This document shows, one piece after another, positions 1,884 through 45,952 of a DNA stretch of 64,000 nucleotides. Below the pieces are notes generated by a model, which was not told where the DNA came from, made no database searches, and was given only the letters and a program-made list of their open reading frames with translations. Source of the stretch: Chromera velia (lineage: Eukaryota; Sar; Chromeraceae); contig JAHBMJ010003498.1 in NCBI GenBank assembly GCA_018398765.1, positions 26,362 to 90,361 of the forward strand. Direction: 5' to 3'. The position numbers and the translations under genes are program-made. Each line of letters starts with the position of its first letter. The first letter of the stretch is position 1.

Positions 1884-4224
1884 ATGTCTTCTGGACAGAG
1901 CAAGAAAGGGCTTTCCGATACTCGGTCTCCCCAGAATTCTCCTGGCGGCCTGAATTCTCCGGACAGGTGGCGGGAGGGGTCGGGTCGTGCGGACGCACAT
2001 CGAGTGAATGGAAGGAAGAGGGACGACAGCAATGAGAGAGATGGTAGAAATGGGAGGGATGGAGAAAGAGAAAGGAGCAAACACGGAGATCGGGGAGAAG
2101 GCAGGGGAAGGGACACAAGCGTTGACAGGGACCGGATGGACGACAGGGACAGAAGACAGGAAAGAGAACGTGGCAAAGAAAGAGACCGGAGGGATGTGAG
2201 AGAACGAGGGGTGAGTGGTAGAAGGGGTGCCAGTCGAGATAGAGACCACGAAGACGAAAGGGGGGGACACGACAGGAACGAGAGGGATAGGAGACGGGTA
2301 CGTGATCGTAGTAGAAGTCGAGATTGGGCTGGAGAGAAAGAAAGGGAGATGGGAAGGGAACACAAGAGAGGGAAAGACAGAGGCCACTCACCCAGAGAGC
2401 GCGATGTTTCTGGAGACCGTCACGCTTCTCGAAGGAGGAGCAGATCGAGAAGCAGAAGCTGTGACCGTCACCGACGGGGGCGAGACCGTTCCCCGTCAAA
2501 CAGTAGACGCCCCCCCTTTCGCCCCTCTCCTGAAAGGCGCCCCCCTGACAGGGATCGGGATCGGGGCAGACACAACAGAGATGGGTGGAGAGACGGCCAC
2601 CGGGACCGAGGCTTTAACGGAAGCAGCCGTTTTGATGACAGAGACAGTCGTGAAATGAGAGAAAGGCACCGAGATGAGGGGCGACGTGGTGATTCTGGTG
2701 GTGCATCTACAGACCGCTACCGTGGAGGAGGCAGGGGAGAGCTTGAGGCTGAGGATGGAAGAGGTGTGAGAGAGAGGGGGGGGGGAAGAGGAAGAGAGGG
2801 CCAGCTGGCAGTTAGGGACCGCCCTAAAGAGAGGGAGAGAGGGAGAGGAGGGGACAGAGGCCGTTGGGAACGGGGGAGAGAGGAGACGGGGGGCGGGGAC
2901 TATGGGCCCATACAAGAGGCTGGGGAGGAGAGGGAAGAGGAGGAGGAGGACGAAGACGAGCCCTTGGAAGGTCTGTTCAACTCGAGTTGTTCCGACGGTG
3001 CTTTTCTTTCTTGACCGTATTGTCTTGTTTTTTGTCAGCAACCCTTTAAAAAAACTGCAGGTGAAAGACAGACGGAGTGTGTCGTCAACTGAACTGAGTT
3101 GGTCGTGTCTTTGTACTCTCATTTTTCCGCTTCGCCGGCCTCTCTGCAGCAGCACTGGAAAGATGCAGTCTGGTTGCTTGTTTTTTTTTCACGAATAGAT
3201 CCAGACAAATCAACTGCAGTACCTGTGAGTGCACCTTTTGAACAGACTTCTCATGCGCATGTCTTCCAGGGTTTGTTTCCATTTCAATCAAAATCACGCG
3301 CACCCACCACGACAGGATCTGAACGGATGTGTGGATGGATGAGTGCAGTCGAGAAGCCCAACTTCGAACCTTCCGGCCTCCTCGCCGCTGAGACGAACAC
3401 AAAAAATGGAGTCACTGTCAAGGCAAGTCAAACTCTGCTTTTCTTTGCGTTTGCGTCCCCTCTCACGTTGGGACATGGGAGCTGAAAGAGAGGGAGGGGA
3501 AAGATTGTTGTCTGTCTCCGTGAATTATGTCTGTCAAGTGGTGTCAAAAGGTCTTCCGTTCCCGACGTCGTCTCTCACTTTTTTTTTTGCTTTCTTTCCG
3601 TCCGACAAGCTGCAGAATGTCAAAAAAAATATGGGTTGAACGTGTTTGTATCCCTGCTGTATGACACGACTGCAGCATACGAAGCCGGCCGATAGCCGCA
3701 TGCCCACAAAGAGGTGGCGCCTCTACGTCTTCAAACAAGAGCAAGGAGGGGGAGCTGGGGAGTCTGGTCAGTTACGATTGGCGGGAGGGAGAAGGCGAGA
3801 GAGGGCTTTTGAAGGACTTTGACAAGAGATTCGTTGTAGCCAGATCCTCCGTCTACCCTTTCTTCCTCCCCTCCTTCCGTTTCTCCCTCGTCTTTACAAA
3901 GGACGCAGACAAACACACTTATTCACACAGCGAGAAGTAGAGAGAGAAACAGCAAAAAGAAGTCGATGTCGTCATGGATGTCGGAAAGGTGTGCGTGGTC
4001 AAGGTACATCAAAAGCAGATAGATACATTCAATCGGACTAGCCAGATTTTTGCTCTGTCTCTGTGGTGTGAGAGTGCGTGCAGAGGTTCTCCACATCCAC
4101 AGACAGGAAACTTTCCTGATGGGTACGTGAGCTTGGAAAGTTCCTGCATGGTGCGAGCATTCCGTCCTCTTCCAACCTCTTCTCTTCTTCTTCTTCTTCT
4201 TCTTCCTCTTGTTTTTCTTCTTCT

Positions 4225-39145: not shown

Positions 39146-39379
39146 ACCCTCAAGCCTCTACCTAGAGTAGAGAGGGGGGAGCTACAAGATTTTCTGGATC
39201 CATTGGCGGCTGCGAAGAGTGCATGTGTGTCACTATGTACGGAGTCTTGAGGCTTCTAAAGGGATGGGTGATTTTAGGTGGGGAACAACAAAGGGTATGA
39301 GAGCAAGGATGATGTTTATAAATTATTGAGAGCGAGAGAAAGAGAGATGAGGGGGGGGGAGGGGGACAATGTCGTTCTT

Positions 39380-39595
39380 CGCATGCCGGGGCTCGCCGGG
39401 TTCTTTTTTGCCCCCCCCCACCCATATGTAGGCGGCGCTTCGCCGTCAAAAACTCAACTGAACCAACCAAGTGGCCTCCAGAGCTGAAAGTTGGGGGATT
39501 TCTCACCCATCCCACTCTCATCAATTCTATGGAACAGAATTTGCAGACTGAACCTATAGCCTCTGCACCAGCAGTTTCCTGTTTAGCAAGGTGTA
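39380..39595 (+). repeat. Left terminal inverted repeat
   Basis: Reverse complement of 44438-44635. In the block around AACTGAACCAACCAAGTGGC to CAATTCTATGGAACAGAAT I count 5 mismatches in about 92 bases. It contains the small palindrome CGGCGCTTCGCCG and a C-run not present in the other copy. Confidence 0.85.
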
Positions 39596-39675
39596 TAGAC
39601 TTTTATTTCTGAGGTCACCGTGTTGTTCACTGTTGTTTGAGCTCAGTTCCAGACTGAGCCGTGTTGCAAGCCGCG

Positions 39676-41109
39676 ATGCCATCGCTCCCACCGCCCAAAT
39701 CTTTGAAGGGGCGTAAAAGAGTGGGAGGGAGACCCACAAGAGCAGAAGCAGAAGGTCTGAAGGACAGATATGTACCCTTAAGAGAGTACCGTACCAACCT
39801 TGTCTCAACCATGTGCGGTTCGTCTCCTGTGTTGGAAAGGCCCCGCCACATAGCAGGGCTAGAGGCTATCAAGGCCTATAGGGACAGAGAAATGCCGCCT
39901 TTCACTGCAGTGTGGACCAAACAGCAACAGCAGGAGCGAGATGCCCACCAGCAAGAGCAGCATAAAAGGAAAAGACGGATGAGTGAGCAGCCGGGGGTGT
40001 ATTGGGAGCAGGTTGTGAAGCGATTTGCATCTGATACCCCGTCTTGGCCCCTTCATGACAAGTACAAAGAGGCCGTAGATGTGTTTTCCTCTGTAGCTCC
40101 CTTGCCTCCTATTCCCGAGGAGGACCCCGACGCTGCTAACGGCAGCTACGAGAACGGCCGCCGGAATCGGGCCAACATGATTGAGAAGCTCGACAGTTGT
40201 CAGGACGCCCCGTCCTTCCATGGAGCGCTCATCCTTGACCCCTGAGACTATGAGAGGTCAGGGAAGGGTGCAGAAAAATTGGCTAACAAGACAACCGCAG
40301 TGGTTGGGCTAGTAGATGACCTGTATGGGCTGAAAGGCCTGCCCGTAGAAGAGCGTGCGGAAGGCCTCACATCGGCCTTTGCTTCGATCGCGTGCAAGGC
40401 CTTCTCCATCAAAGAAATGGAATTGGCCGAGATGATTGCAGAGAACACACAGCAGGGGGGGTATCGTTTCGTAGATACAGAGAGGGAAAACAGAGCAGAC
40501 ATGCCCCTTCACATTAAAAAGAGACTTGAGAGAGTGAGGGGGCGGGTGTGTTTCACTCATGATGCGGCCCCTCTATGTCCCAAACGAGGCACTGTACAGA
40601 GTTGATCTCTCTTGCTGCCTTGGCATTGCTAATTGGCAGGAGAACGTCAACACCATCACCTCCCTCTTCGAGGCCCCAGAGATCAAGACTGGGGGGACCC
40701 TTCTCTCGACGACCGGGATCGTTCTTCAAAAAGGCCCACACGAAGGAAAAACTGTCAAAGTTGGTCTCCCCGCCCCTCCCTTCCGCTCCTTTCCCCTCTT
40801 TCTCTCTCTCACTCTATCCCATAATAATTCTCCTGTTTCTTTTTCTCTCTCTGTATGCAGATAGAATTCCACGGGACCGCAGACCAGAGCGCTGAACTCA
40901 AGGGAAAGGGACATGCGGGGGCGAGTTGCGCTGCGTCCTGCGGCAACTGTTTTCAGAATGACAAAGAGATGTAGACCCTCAAGGGGCTCGAGAAGTGGGT
41001 TCCGAAGGATACCAACTTCAACCCCCGAAGACCAACCAGGTCCTACTTGGACCCTCCACCCCTTGACTCGGCCCCGACGAGGACACGTCAAAACCACGAT
41101 GTAAAAGTG

Positions 41110-41182
<73 letters not shown>

Positions 41183-41192
41183 GTATGTATGT

Positions 41193-41242
<50 letters not shown>

Positions 41243-42441
41243 GTGTGTGTGTTGTTCTGGAAAGCACTCGACAGATTGCTACTGATGGGTCTGCAAAGGC
41301 AGCGTGGGGCCGTGGCGGTAGCCCTCATGGATCAAAGAGGTCTGGCCCGATGTCCTCCACCTTGCGATGCGTGCGGCAGAATTCATCTGCATTCGCCGTT
41401 TTCGCACGACCATGTGGAGAAGTGCCTGCGTGTGTCAGGAATGCAGGCAAGGGGGGGGGTCCTCTGCGAGTGAGGCTGAGCTGAATGCAGAAGAGGGGGA
41501 CAAAATTCCCCCCCCCTGTGAGGATTCCGAAGAGGAGGAAGCGAAAAGAAAAGAGGGGGAGGAGACAAAGAAAGCCAAGATCCAGCCCCTTTGCTGTCAT
41601 GAGTGCAACTGCCCTCTCGAGCCAAACGAGGAGGGCAAGCAGTGCGGACGGAAAGTCCTGTACGAGATGAACTCTCTTTGGAGGGACAGCATCCTGATCA
41701 ACACAAACACACTGATTTCGGTAGCCAATCTGGAGCTCTCGAAGAAGCCAACTGCCCCAAAGTTCGTCTGGCCAAAGAAGAGTCTGCAGGGGCGAACTGT
41801 TGTGAAGCTGTCCCTTCAGCACAAAGACATGTTCCGCATGTGCCACATGACGGACATAAAAGAGAGGATCATGCAGACATCGTTGTTTCGGTGCCTGCAT
41901 GTTCTTCGTATGACAACAGATTTGGATGTGAAAAGGGGTAGGAAACTATGCAGCTGCGTTGGGGCAGTTGAAAGATCTTTTTCTGCAGATTCATAAGCAT
42001 ATGGGGGTAAAGTGGAATGGGACCCTCCACAGGCTTGAGCATGCCTGGTATTGGCTGAGAACGAGGGGGTCTTATGGGAGGGTCTTCAATATGCAGGCTC
42101 ATGAAGCCTTCAACCAGGTCATCAAGGAGGCCTTTTCATTAAAAGGCGCCTCAAGTCATGGTTCGTTTGGCACAAAGGCCCCAACGGGAAAGTGGGAGGG
42201 AAGAGACCTAGACATGGGCCATCGGCTAGTGACTGGCCATCTCTTGCAGACTCTGTCGGCTTCCAGTACCGCCAACAGAAGGACAGAGGCATGGACCGCT
42301 TCCCGCCTTGAACTAATGCTTACACCAGGTGAGAAAGAAGACCTCTCGTCAGAGAGTGAAGCTGATTCCGATGCCGATTTAGACATATCTGTTGAGCTTG
42401 ATTTCGTTGAAGACGTTCAGGACCAAGATGAAAACATGTAA
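39676..42441 (+). pseudogene. Transposase-like gene unit of the TIR element, broken
   Basis: A chain of coding segments on +: 39676 to about 40555 in one frame but with a TGA at 40243-40245; a frame change near 40555; a segment to 40758; a plausible intron 40759-40860; a segment with Cys pattern (HAGASCAASCGNC) stopped by TAG at about 40975; a CT/GT microsatellite at 41110-41253; a segment 41367-41996 with CHECNCPLE and acidic/Lys-rich stretches; and a last segment 41959-42441 in another frame (HRLEHAWYWLRTRGSYGRVFN, then an acidic tail). The segments look like one long protein that has accumulated stops and frameshifts. Lys/Arg-rich N-terminus, Cys motifs and acidic C-terminus suit a DNA-binding transposase, but this is inference from position and composition. 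Confidence 0.5.
41110..41256. repeat. (CT)n-(GT)n microsatellite inside the transposase unit
   Basis: A CT tract passes directly into GT/GTAT units. It may be an intron (GTGGGT donor at 41107) or an expansion within a dead gene. Confidence 0.85.
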
Positions 42442-42809
42442 AAAAAAATTAATAGCATATAAATTTTAAGCATTAAATTTTAAGTCATTTAAACTCTAAT
42501 TTAAATTAAGTAGATTCAGATGACGTATATTTGCGTAGCATAGCATAGCATTGATATCAACCGTCAACTATATTTTTAACTAGAGTTTATAAATCAATAA
42601 ATAAAGTATACATAAAGTATATAAACTATAATTTAAATAAAATACATTAACCGTCAACTATATTTTAAACTAGAATTTCTCAGTTTAAATTTTATACTTC
42701 GATCAAAAAGAATTTAAATTATAAGTATACTTTAAGCATAAATTAAAATTTAAAATAGAATTTAAATGAGCGGTTTTTTGTTTAAAATCAAACCTCAAAC
42801 CTCAATGAC
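42442..42809. other. AT-rich centre of the TIR element
   Basis: Non-coding and strongly AT-rich, between the 3' ends of the two convergent units. It contains a direct repeat AACCGTCAACTATATTTT... at about 42558 and 42649. Confidence 0.7.
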
Positions 42810-44393
42810 TCAAACATCAAAATCAAAGTAGACTTTATCCTGTCCGTCATCGGCCGAATCCTCTGCGGGCGCCGAAGGCTGAAAAGGGAGTGGCGGCCCA
42901 CTCCAAGCCACCTGAAGGACACCTACTCCTGCTGTAGCCGCTGCTGCAGGTGCTGGTATAGTAGAGGAAGAAGAAGAGGCCACAAACGTCATCTGCTCCA
43001 TTGCTGCAGGGTTGTCTGGAACATCATACACCAGGTGAAGGGACGCCGACCCCACCCTGCTACTGCTGAACAACATGTAAATGGAAGGACGAAGGAGCCG
43101 TCTTGCTACCCCCCCCTCCACTCCAAACCATCGGTTGAAGACGGCATTGACCTGTAACCCAGGCAGCACACCCTGGATCGCCTTTCCCCTCAGATGGACA
43201 ACGCAGGGGCGCTCCATGGCTGTCCTGAATTGGACGGCCTCCATCTTGAGGAGGCACTCCACTGCCTTCCGCCTCTTCGCATCATTTTGGGGCTGCCTTT
43301 TTTTCAGCTTTCTCTTCTTTCCCCCTCCTTCCTCCACTCCTTCTTCCTCCGAGGTCACCTCCTCCTCGGGGTTGTAGTTCGTCGTCAGCAAGGCACGCAT
43401 CCTCTCGTCCGTCACGTCGAACATGGGATCCACTCCACAAATCACCTCTGCACTCACAGAGGCGCACATACACCATCAAGTCATTCATCCCTCCATCCAT
43501 CACCAGGCAGGCAGGCAGGCGAACAGCCCGGCAGACAGGCAGGCAGACAAGGCAGGCAGACAAGGTAGGTAGGCAAGGTAGGCAGGCAAGGCAGACAGGC
43601 AAGGCAGGCAGGCAGGCAAGCCTGGCAAGGCAAGGCAGGCAGGCAGGCAGGCAAGGCACACAAGGCAGGCAGGCAGGCAGGCAGGCGGGCAGCTGGGCAG
43701 AGAGGCAGGCAGGCAAGTACAGGCAGGCAGGCAGGGTCCATCCATCTGTTCATGCACTCATGCATCTATGCACCCATTCTTCCGTTTCCCCGGTCCAAAC
43801 ACCCCTCCGCAGTGTGACCAGCACTGCTTTATTGGGGGAGAAAGATGTATCAAATCACCTTTCAGAATGTCGTCCTGCTCGGCTGATGCATCTACTTTCC
43901 CCAGTCCCAGAACGACCCTCCCCCATACGTAGTGAGGTCCGAAGAACCCCGTCAGAATGTCCGTCTGGTAAGTAGCGAGCGAGAGGACTCGGTACTTCAA
44001 CGCGAAGTACTTAAGGCCGTTCGACACGCACAATCTGTAGGACAACCAATTTAATGAATCGTGAAATTCATTGAATTTGTCCTTGCACAAGTCAAAAAGG
44101 GCCCGGCCCCTCGCAACCCAGTGCCCTGGGATTTCTTTTAGGGCCTTCCTGGCCCCGTACTCAGGCCTCCGCATTGTTAACGAGAGCAGATTTTCGAACA
44201 AAACAGAGAAAGAGTTGGTCATCTTCGATTGAAGCGAGTCAAACAATTTAAGGACTCCGTCTTTCTTCTCTTCTGGGGGGGCCGACTTTCCTTCCAACGC
44301 TAAAATTAGGGCCGTGATGGGTCCCTCATCCGGAAATATGCTTCTGCACTGCCTCACTGCCGCGATGGCTGCCTCCACACTTTCAGCAACCAT
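42810..44393 (-). CDS. Second gene unit of the TIR element, unknown protein
   Basis: Two-exon model on the minus strand. Exon 1 runs from the ATG near 44393 (MVAESVEAAIAAVRQ) to about 43790. Exon 2 starts after a GTGAGTGCAG acceptor at about 43448 (EVICGVDPMFDV) and ends at the stop at 42810-42812. Total is about 400 aa. Exon 1 is helical, with LNWLSYRLCVSNGLKYFALKYR. Exon 2 has a Glu-rich stretch, a basic nuclear-localisation-like KKRKLKKRQ, a beta-rich segment (RPCVVHLRGKAIQGVLPGLQ) and an acidic tail. Frames are intact, unlike the partner unit. No family recognised. The exact donor was not fixed. Position just inside the right TIR suggests an element-encoded accessory or DNA-binding protein (inference). 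Confidence 0.5.
43500..43738. repeat. (GGCA)n minisatellite
   Basis: About 240 bases of GGCA units with AAGGCA/GACAGGCA variants, inside the probable intron of the minus-strand unit of the TIR element. Confidence 0.9.
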
Positions 44394-44437
44394 GGAGACG
44401 GAAGGGAGCGGACACGAATTTTTTTCAAAAAACAAAC

Positions 44438-44635
44438 TGGCAAACAGGAAACTGCTGGTGCACTAGCTATAGTTGAAGTCTGGAGATTCTGTTCCATAGA
44501 ATTGATGGGAGTGGGATAGGTAAGAAATCCCCCAACTTTCAGCTCTGGAGGTCACTTGGTTGGTTCAGTCGAGTTTTCGGCGGCGAAGCGCCGCTTTGGG
44601 AGGGCAAAAAAGAACCCGGCGGGCCCCGGCATGCG
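44438..44635 (-). repeat. Right terminal inverted repeat
   Basis: Reverse complement of the left repeat at 39380-39595; the outer edge reads CCCCGGCATGCG on the plus strand. Confidence 0.85.
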
Positions 44636-45952
44636 TTCATGCATGGAAGCATAAGTCTTTCTCGTATTATACCAGTCATAAGGGGAGGGGGGTGCGTAGA
44701 GGAGTAAAGATAGCAAGCAGATACACGGACATGGTGTGTGTCCAGACACACAGATAAATATTCTGTCAGCATGATGACTAGAAGGCCAGTCTGGGCCATG
44801 CAGTCCGGATCAGGGGCCAACTCTATTCATCTGGCACTGAAAAATGGGCTTTTGCTATTGTACTCGCTGTTTCAACAAGGGGGTGCTCCGTTCCTCCTCT
44901 AATTCATGAATAATCAAAATCGATCGGACTTGTCGATCCATCTAGACCTCCTTATGACGTTGTTTACTTTCTCTCCGCTTTGCCCTCTTACAGGACCGTT
45001 TGTGTATTGATGTTGAGCCTTGTGCCGTAACGGTTCCAGCTGTATTTTTCTGTTGCATGTCTGTGGAGAAAGGGACTGTGCTAGGGAGTGTGAAAGTATG
45101 GTCCGACAGGGAGAGGAAAAGATGATCTTGCACTGATCGAGCTCGAATCTGATGGATGCACAGGCATTCCTCTCATACGATGGAGATGGTTTAGAGCTTT
45201 AGATATCTCTAAAATAGGTTTGCATATCAAAACTTATAACATTTGCAGCACCTCCCTTATGTTCGATTTAGAATTAAGTTATTAGGATGTTCTATCTAGC
45301 GCTTCTAGTGCTAGTCCTAGTGAAAGTAAGCATGCCAATCATGTTTTTAACTTGAAGCTTTTTTTGATCACATTCTTTCTAAAAAAAATGTTAGAAATGT
45401 TAATTTGGAGATGTGGAGATGATTCAGGAGATCCCCCAAGACTAGCTCAAAGAATTTTGGAGATTCCCAACAAACACGTATGTGACTCCCAGTGTCCCAC
45501 TCTCTAACGTCTCTAAAGTATCTCAAAACCGGACTTTGGGAGCATCTTCCTTACGTTCGATCTATAAGCTAGTAGGATGCGCTTCAGACCGCCGCTTCTA
45601 GTGAAACTAAACGTGCCGATCATGTTTCTCATTAAGCTAGTTTCTAAGCTTTATGTGATGGTATTCCATCCTAGATCGATTCCATCTAAAAAAATGTTTT
45701 TACAATCTTCCTCAGGCTTCATTAATTTTGAAAACACCGTCACATATCTTAAGATGTACCTAATTGTTTCTTAATTCAACTTTAAATTTGTTTTGCACAT
45801 TTTTGCATATGAATTGAAGATGATATACAGCAATGCATTATCATGCCATTATGATAAATTCTCAGAAAGAATGTTATTTTTTTGTTTTTCATTCTTTTAA
45901 TTCTTGTCTTTTGTTTCAACAGCAGAGTCATAACAGAGTCACTGACAGCACT
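44636..45952. other. AT-rich region with a diverged duplication
   Basis: No gene seen. Two related blocks lie in the same orientation, about 45205-45395 and about 45510-45700. Shared landmarks are CTTATGTTCGATTTA / CTTACGTTCGATCTA, then CTTCTAGTG, then GCCAATCATGTTT / GCCGATCATGTTT, then TCTAAAAAAA. Confidence 0.5.

Follow-up and report, generated by a model that had tools for sequence, protein, structure and literature searches.

A two-gene DNA transposon with long terminal inverted repeats in Chromera velia and its putative, highly diverged RAG1/Transib/EnSpm-type transposase

Positions 39380-44635 of a 64,000-nt stretch of the Chromera velia genome (assembly GCA_018398765.1, contig JAHBMJ010003498.1, positions 26,362 to 90,361 of the forward strand; hereafter the window) hold a single copy of a transposon family, here called family A, with long terminal inverted repeats (TIRs) and two convergent genes. 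That the element is a real cut-and-paste DNA transposon is nearly certain from its copies, ends and target sites, and its gene 1 probably encodes a very diverged transposase of the RAG1/Transib/EnSpm type (CMCT-like), as judged from ordered sequence motifs. We describe the element as a new two-gene CMCT-like lineage and leave its CMCT membership provisional, because its ends read CG..CG, its sister lineage B/C misses two of the marks of the clade, and profile support for the kinship is partial. The ribonuclease H (RNase-H)-type fold, the zinc site and the catalytic activity of gene 1, as well as the role of gene 2, are predictions from sequence.

Copies, ends and target-site duplications

The original prediction, drawn from the letters of the window, described inverted ends of about 200 bp that are near-identical over long blocks, with a gene unit starting within about 100 bp inside each end and both units running to an AT-rich centre, and this plan was borne out in each part. 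The left arm of 205 bp and the right arm of 194 bp are 85% identical with gaps, and contain one block of 38 nt with 95% complementarity (39380-39417/44598-44635) and another of 153 nt with 90% complementarity (39432-39584/44442-44594). Gene 1 on the plus strand starts 92 bp inward of the left arm (at ~39676) and gene 2 on the minus strand starts 49 bp inward of the right arm, the two converging on a centre with a G+C content of 20.4%, compared with 51.3% for the whole element. In a search of the genome assembly (177.8 Mb in 4040 contigs), a 221-bp left arm had at least 32 matches, its own in the window included, and the inverted arms are thus not due to chance.

We examined 20 loci, namely the window and 19 others. 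Both true ends were found at nine of them (the window, L009-L015 and L017), seven of these copies spanning 5130-5987 bp and two being shorter, at 3140 and 2468 bp, while ten loci (L018-L027) had a single end; L016 (C3592:24900-31700) is rearranged, with right-arm sequence in two same-orientation pieces ~5.5 kb apart. All 29 true ends that were read begin with 5'-CGCATGC or with this motif altered by C>T/G>A changes. A lack of other copies, or copies whose ends do not coincide with the inverted repeats, had been named in the original prediction as counter-evidence; both were looked for and neither was found, so that its two-gene element with long TIRs stands.

Identical dinucleotides flank six of the nine two-ended family A copies (TT, AA, TT, TT, TT and TG), and the B element at L063 is flanked by a TG duplication. 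Together, seven of ten paired ends thus carry a 2-bp duplication, a count reached by 12 of 20,000 permutations of the right flanks, and no flank matches of 3-6 bp were found among these ten. When A, B and D-type copies are taken together, the duplications are TT or AA in six of eight cases.

To compare filled with empty sites, the flanks of seven copies were joined with one 2-bp unit kept, the genome was searched, and the best 40 of 1082 candidates were scored. The junction of L013 was spanned by 40 of 41 rows at 90-92% identity among these best 40 of 1082 candidates, because L013 sits in a repeat; as its rows dominate, the remaining six junctions were neither confirmed nor refuted. All five empty sites that were read run on as AAGATGTTCTT, whereas the filled site reads TT, element, TT, and the comparison therefore gives directly both the element ends, 5'-CGCATG..CATGCG-3', and the 2-bp target-site duplication, the two features that the original prediction had proposed to define. 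A one-sided case was provided by the left flank of L018: as far as the element's first base it agrees with an unoccupied repeat in L011, and a few bases further on agree too. The flanks of L013 (on C1739) belong to a repeat family of which at least 40 copies, at 90-92% identity, cross the insertion point.

The copies are strongly decayed. Among eight of them (the window, L009, L011-L015 and L018), C>T/G>A accounts for 850 of 1000 changes from the majority base; these changes occur in every context and are most frequent at CpG (261 changes, ~520 sites) and CpA (315 changes, 857 sites), a pattern that looks like heavy cytosine deamination, whether linked to methylation or resembling repeat-induced point mutation.

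Sister lineages in the same genome

A search with the last exon of gene 1 revealed relatives at 31-38% identity within the C. velia genome, which make up lineage B/C and include a full element at L063:484-7157 with ends 5'-CGCATGCGGG. Further searching of the genome found lineage D (C2090), with ends 5'-CGCATCCCC that lie within an inverted repeat of 577 bp whose arms are 97% identical; a non-autonomous relative of D on C1250 is flanked by an AA|AA duplication. The two-gene convergent plan and the 5'-CGCAT ends are common to A, B/C and D, and the ends read 5'-CG..CG-3' in A, B and D.

The D element occupies ~871-5626 of L065 joined to L066. Its inverted repeat extends past the element ends, and inverted copies of a sequence present at many loci (L065:660-1236 and its mirror in L065/L066) flank the element on both sides.

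Gene 1 and its ordered motifs

Gene 1 of L014 and L018, the fuller copies, comprises four exons with common borders and 1001 codons; the borders follow GT-AG, except for one L014 acceptor that reads CAA, and each copy contains three premature stops. Exon borders could be set in six of the seven copies tried, all six of which carry stops or frame shifts. The window copy combines an in-frame stop, a loss of ~720 bp relative to L009 and a frame break in exon 4, and its gene 1 is therefore destroyed. The window copy is no longer autonomous, and its minus-strand unit is open while its plus-strand unit is broken, as had been predicted. The ratio of non-synonymous to synonymous substitution rates (dN/dS) for gene 1, from one pair of A copies, was 0.42.

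The CMCT clade includes EnSpm, Mirage, Chapaev and Transib/RAG1 and is marked by D, D, E, 2C and 3H, the 3H consisting of LH and of H(3-4)H ahead of the E (PMC12730594). Gene 1 of family A is 31-34% identical to that of B/C, and their alignment contains SxDG and GTxDQS, both invariant in 5/5 rows, followed by DxLHxAMRxxE and MQAxxAFN. The predicted catalytic D, D and E are aligned in order in A, B and C, and the first two (D1 and D2) also in lineage D; one B/C locus, L039, has K in place of the catalytic E. C(2)C lies at D+19/D+22 in all seven A copies in which the stretch was found (12 loci scanned) and at D+21/D+24 at the one lineage D locus. DVLH is present in four of five A copies, L018 having Y, and its counterpart DCLH in all eight readable B/C loci (nine scanned). 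H(3)H was present in 7/7 readable A copies, with the E located 21 residues further on, and the lineage D gene is truncated upstream of this part. The A copy L014 has the full set of eight marked CMCT residues in their order. The spacing of C(2)C is the same as in RAG1 (D708, C727 and C730, residue identities checked), in which the distance from H(3)H to E is 20 residues compared with 21 in family A.

The original prediction held that the proteins matched no recognisable transposase family. This holds for every library tried, yet gene 1 is not without affinity, because its ordered motifs are those described for the CMCT clade, and a diverged RAG1/Transib/EnSpm-type transposase is the most likely assignment. 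A pattern of the ordered motifs was met by RAG1, HzTransib and the A copy L014, and by none of 30,000 shuffles of each A protein. In addition, a profile of the segment from D1 to C(2)C scored 30.5 against HzTransib, compared with a mean of 12.8 and a maximum of 18.5 for 60 shuffled templates, and a maximum of 18.3 for 40 column shuffles. For reference, RAG1 and Transib themselves give 20% in hhalign.

Gene 2

Gene 2 of the window copy is open, with two exons encoding 390 amino acids. It is fully open in two of seven A copies (the window and L014), whereas stops or a frame shift interrupt it in L009, L011, L012, L013 and L015. Its dN/dS was 0.30-0.66 in 15/15 pairs, which were formed from six of the seven A copies and are not independent of one another. 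The ratios of both genes are as expected if selection acted before insertion and decay followed it.

The gene 2 protein of lineage B had 23 matches across 13 contigs, 11 of which also bear gene 1, the pair being convergent in 11/11; on the other two, C1416 and C1105, gene 1 was absent among the matches listed. An open reading frame at the corresponding place in lineage D matches the C-terminal domain of the gene 2 protein in register, with an hhalign probability of 82% for B against D and a score that none of 100 shuffles reached; for the profile of A against D, 0/100 shuffles reached the score as well. By sequence search, the BLASTP match between A and B was not significant on its own (E 0.029), nor was any tblastn match to lineage D. 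Gene 2 of A, B and D had no significant Pfam family, Kelch and PHD included, the best weak match being that of a B protein to DUF1360 (E 0.024), and a search of IMG/VR gave no significant match. A single-sequence AlphaFold model of exon 2 of the window gene had a mean predicted local distance difference test score of 34 and was not used.

Since the convergent pair has been kept in three lineages despite gene 1 proteins that share only about a third of their residues, gene 2 may encode an accessory DNA-binding or complex-forming partner of the transposase. In the mechanism that we propose from these features, the gene 1 protein would bind the long TIRs and cut at 5'-CGCATG, and the ends would be joined, mostly at TT/AA, to a target cut with a 2-bp stagger.

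Features of the window copy

The coordinates of the features are collected in Table 1. The CAGG-rich array in the gene 2 intron consists of 18 copies of a 13-bp unit, and CT/GT microsatellites are present in introns 1 and 3 of gene 1. To the right of the element, window positions 45165-45631 form a diverged repeat with at least 43 other matches, at 67-94% identity over parts. Ten of the 28 long open reading frames listed for the window outside the element were searched, and none had a Pfam match at E 0.01.

Table 1 Coordinates of the family A copy and its parts in the window
Feature	Position	Strand	Remark
Left terminal inverted repeat	39380..39584	+	starts 5'-CGCATGCCGGGG
Right terminal inverted repeat	44442..44635	-	finishes CCCCGGCATGCG-3'
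Target-site duplication TT, left copy	39378..39379	.	2-bp length from empty sites of copy L013
Target-site duplication TT, right copy	44636..44637	.	identity of flank dinucleotides
Gene 1 exon 1, 5' part	39676..40539	+	in-frame stop 40243-40245
Gene 1, loss of ~720 bp	40537-40542	+	rest of exon 1 with predicted catalytic D1 and most of intron 1 gone
Gene 1 exon 2	40540..40759	+	
Gene 1 exon 3	40861..41110	+	second predicted catalytic D (GTADQS), C(2)C
Gene 1 exon 4	41257..42441	+	DVLH, H(3)H (TLHRLEH), predicted catalytic E (MQAHEAFN)
Gene 1 exon 4 defects	frame break ~41932-41996	+	acceptor site of other copies not found in window copy
AT-rich centre between convergent genes	42442..42809	.	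20.4% G+C
Gene 2 exon 1	43859..44393	-	ATG at 44393
Gene 2 intron, GT-AG	43448..43858	-	contains CAGG-rich tandem array 43504-43735
Gene 2 exon 2	42810..43447	-	full protein of 390 amino acids, open in window copy

Weighing the kinship of gene 1

Several results count against the assignment of gene 1 to the CMCT clade and of the whole to one two-gene lineage. Gene 1 had no significant match in Pfam, PHROGs, PDB (by sequence and by profile), IMG/VR or the GTDB genomes, its weak matches being to unrelated families (Pfam E at least 0.05; PDB E 0.019). The motif pattern was written after the alignment had been seen and its ranges were then widened, two earlier patterns having failed on HzTransib and the first of them also on both A proteins; the final pattern is not matched by the A copy L018 or by lineages B and C. 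The significant match to Transib spans just 23 columns. Against RAG1, the same D1-to-C(2)C profile scored 19.7, which one of 60 shuffles reaches; the segments with DxLH and E were equalled or exceeded by 3, 17, 1 and 11 of 60 shuffles and were aligned in the wrong register, and hhalign gave no match between the whole gene 1 core and Transib or RAG1. In lineage B/C, C(2)C was found in none of six and H(3)H in none of eight readable loci. The ends read CG..CG, compared with mostly CA..TG in the CMCT clade, although such ends are no absolute requirement. Copies L010, L011 and L017 have no 2-bp duplication, and the fuller D copy is flanked by TT|AA, with no duplication. Finally, gene 2 of A and B align weakly, with a score of 26.4 compared with a mean of 13.9 and a maximum of 27.8 for 60 shuffles, at least one of which exceeds it.

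No match to Transposase_21 appeared in the Pfam searches, and PF02992 found nothing in the C. velia genome, although its control matched nowhere and the result says little. Among published titles and the starts of abstracts on new DNA-transposon superfamilies, two-ORF (open reading frame), RAG-like and CMCT elements, and Chromera, we found no such element; Repbase lay outside this search, which is no proof of absence.

Taking these observations together, we regard CMCT kinship as probable rather than secure, because the pattern is post hoc, the profile match is limited to 23 columns, and the whole core is unmatched. That B/C lack C(2)C and H(3)H together, the two halves of the presumed zinc site, is what a shared role would predict.

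The same shortfall of profile matches beyond the 23-column C(2)C segment, the missing 2C and H(3)H of B/C and the CG..CG ends would also fit a genuine two-gene cut-and-paste transposon with a DDE transposase outside the CMCT clade, from an undescribed or another superfamily, in which the likeness in C(2)C, LH and H(3)H would be convergent or reflect the general RNase-H layout. We consider this unlikely, though it is the most serious of the alternatives, as it is opposed by the order of all eight marked residues in L014, by the RAG1-like spacings from D2 to C(2)C and from H(3)H to E, and by a Transib match at C(2)C that exceeds all 60 shuffles.

An element of the ISL2EU (PHIS) type is very improbable. 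ISL2EU is described as having two ORFs, 2-bp AT duplications and TIRs of 6-259 bp that usually start with GG, with a transposase combining DDE, helix-turn-helix and THAP parts and a YqaJ partner (PMC4482050). Two genes, a 2-bp duplication made mostly of T or A, and a TIR length inside that range speak for such an origin, but the duplications here are TT, AA or TG rather than AT, the TIRs begin with CGCAT rather than GG, and neither protein had a Pfam match to DDE_4, THAP or YqaJ. We rejected ISL2EU on these grounds.

MuDR/MULE elements have long TIRs, two convergent genes and duplications of ~9 bp, and their transposase differs from gene 1. Kinship with MuDR, which the original prediction had brought in for its shared plan of long TIRs and two convergent genes, did not hold up: the empty sites contradict it with a duplication of 2 bp instead of ~9 bp, Pfam searches with cut-offs of E 1 or 10 gave no MULE model, and the ordered motifs are those described for the CMCT clade, leaving this candidate rejected and barely plausible. 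Least credible of all is a non-mobile segmental inverted duplication with captured genes, which the lesions of gene 1 in each copy tried would suit, and which we rejected because it is contradicted by the clean 2-bp duplication seen on comparing filled with empty sites and by the differing flanks of nine two-ended copies.

Comparison with known systems

With the CMCT clade, family A shares the order of D, D and E, C(2)C and the three H. EnSpm elements often encode two proteins, and Transib has a single gene. Target-site duplications of CMCT elements are 2-5 bp long and their ends are 5'-CA..TG-3' in most cases, PlavakaA having TGT..ACA (PMC12730594); the 2-bp duplication found here falls within this range, and duplications of 2-3 bp are known from the part of the clade that holds EnSpm/CACTA, Mirage, Chapaev, Plavaka, ESTA and Lanisha.

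Transib has 5-bp duplications and CAC ends (PMC7204232). Its transposase shares with gene 1 a DG-type first motif, C(2)C after the second D, LH seven residues ahead of E, and a third motif like SxxxxExxN, which is present as such in B and has N for S in A. By contrast, the present elements have a 2-bp duplication, CGCAT ends and two genes.

The RAG genes are thought to derive from an animal transposon that combined a RAG1-like transposase gene with a convergent RAG2-like gene, and the RAGL/ProtoRAG elements have a 5-bp duplication, 5'-CAC ends and a convergent RAG2-like gene of Kelch/PHD type (PMC7204232). They resemble the C. velia element in having a RAG1-type transposase gene (here putative) and a convergent second gene between TIRs, with the order D..D..LH..E. 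However, the C. velia element has a 2-bp duplication, CGCAT ends, TIRs of ~200 bp and a second protein of 390 amino acids without a Kelch or PHD match, and its gene 1 is not recognisable as RAG1 by sequence. Membership in RAGL was rejected, the duplication being 2 bp instead of 5 bp, the ends CGC instead of CAC, and the Kelch/PHD match missing. On the best reading, the element has a plan like that of the RAG transposons but differs from them in its second gene, its ends and the 2-bp length of its duplications.

More tentatively, the three lineages may represent an undescribed CMCT/RAG1-type lineage at the level of a superfamily, in which a RAG1/Transib-type transposase has long been paired with an unrelated second protein in a tail-to-tail, two-protein machine, parallel to or older than the RAG1-RAG2 plan, and in which one branch lost all four zinc residues of the RAG1-type insert domain. 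If so, the two-protein plan would have had more than one origin or would be older. As the C(2)C/H(3)H site is present in natural sequences of family A (and its C(2)C half in lineage D) and absent from those of B/C, the need for this site in transposition becomes testable, in elements whose two-gene plan recalls that of the RAG transposons.

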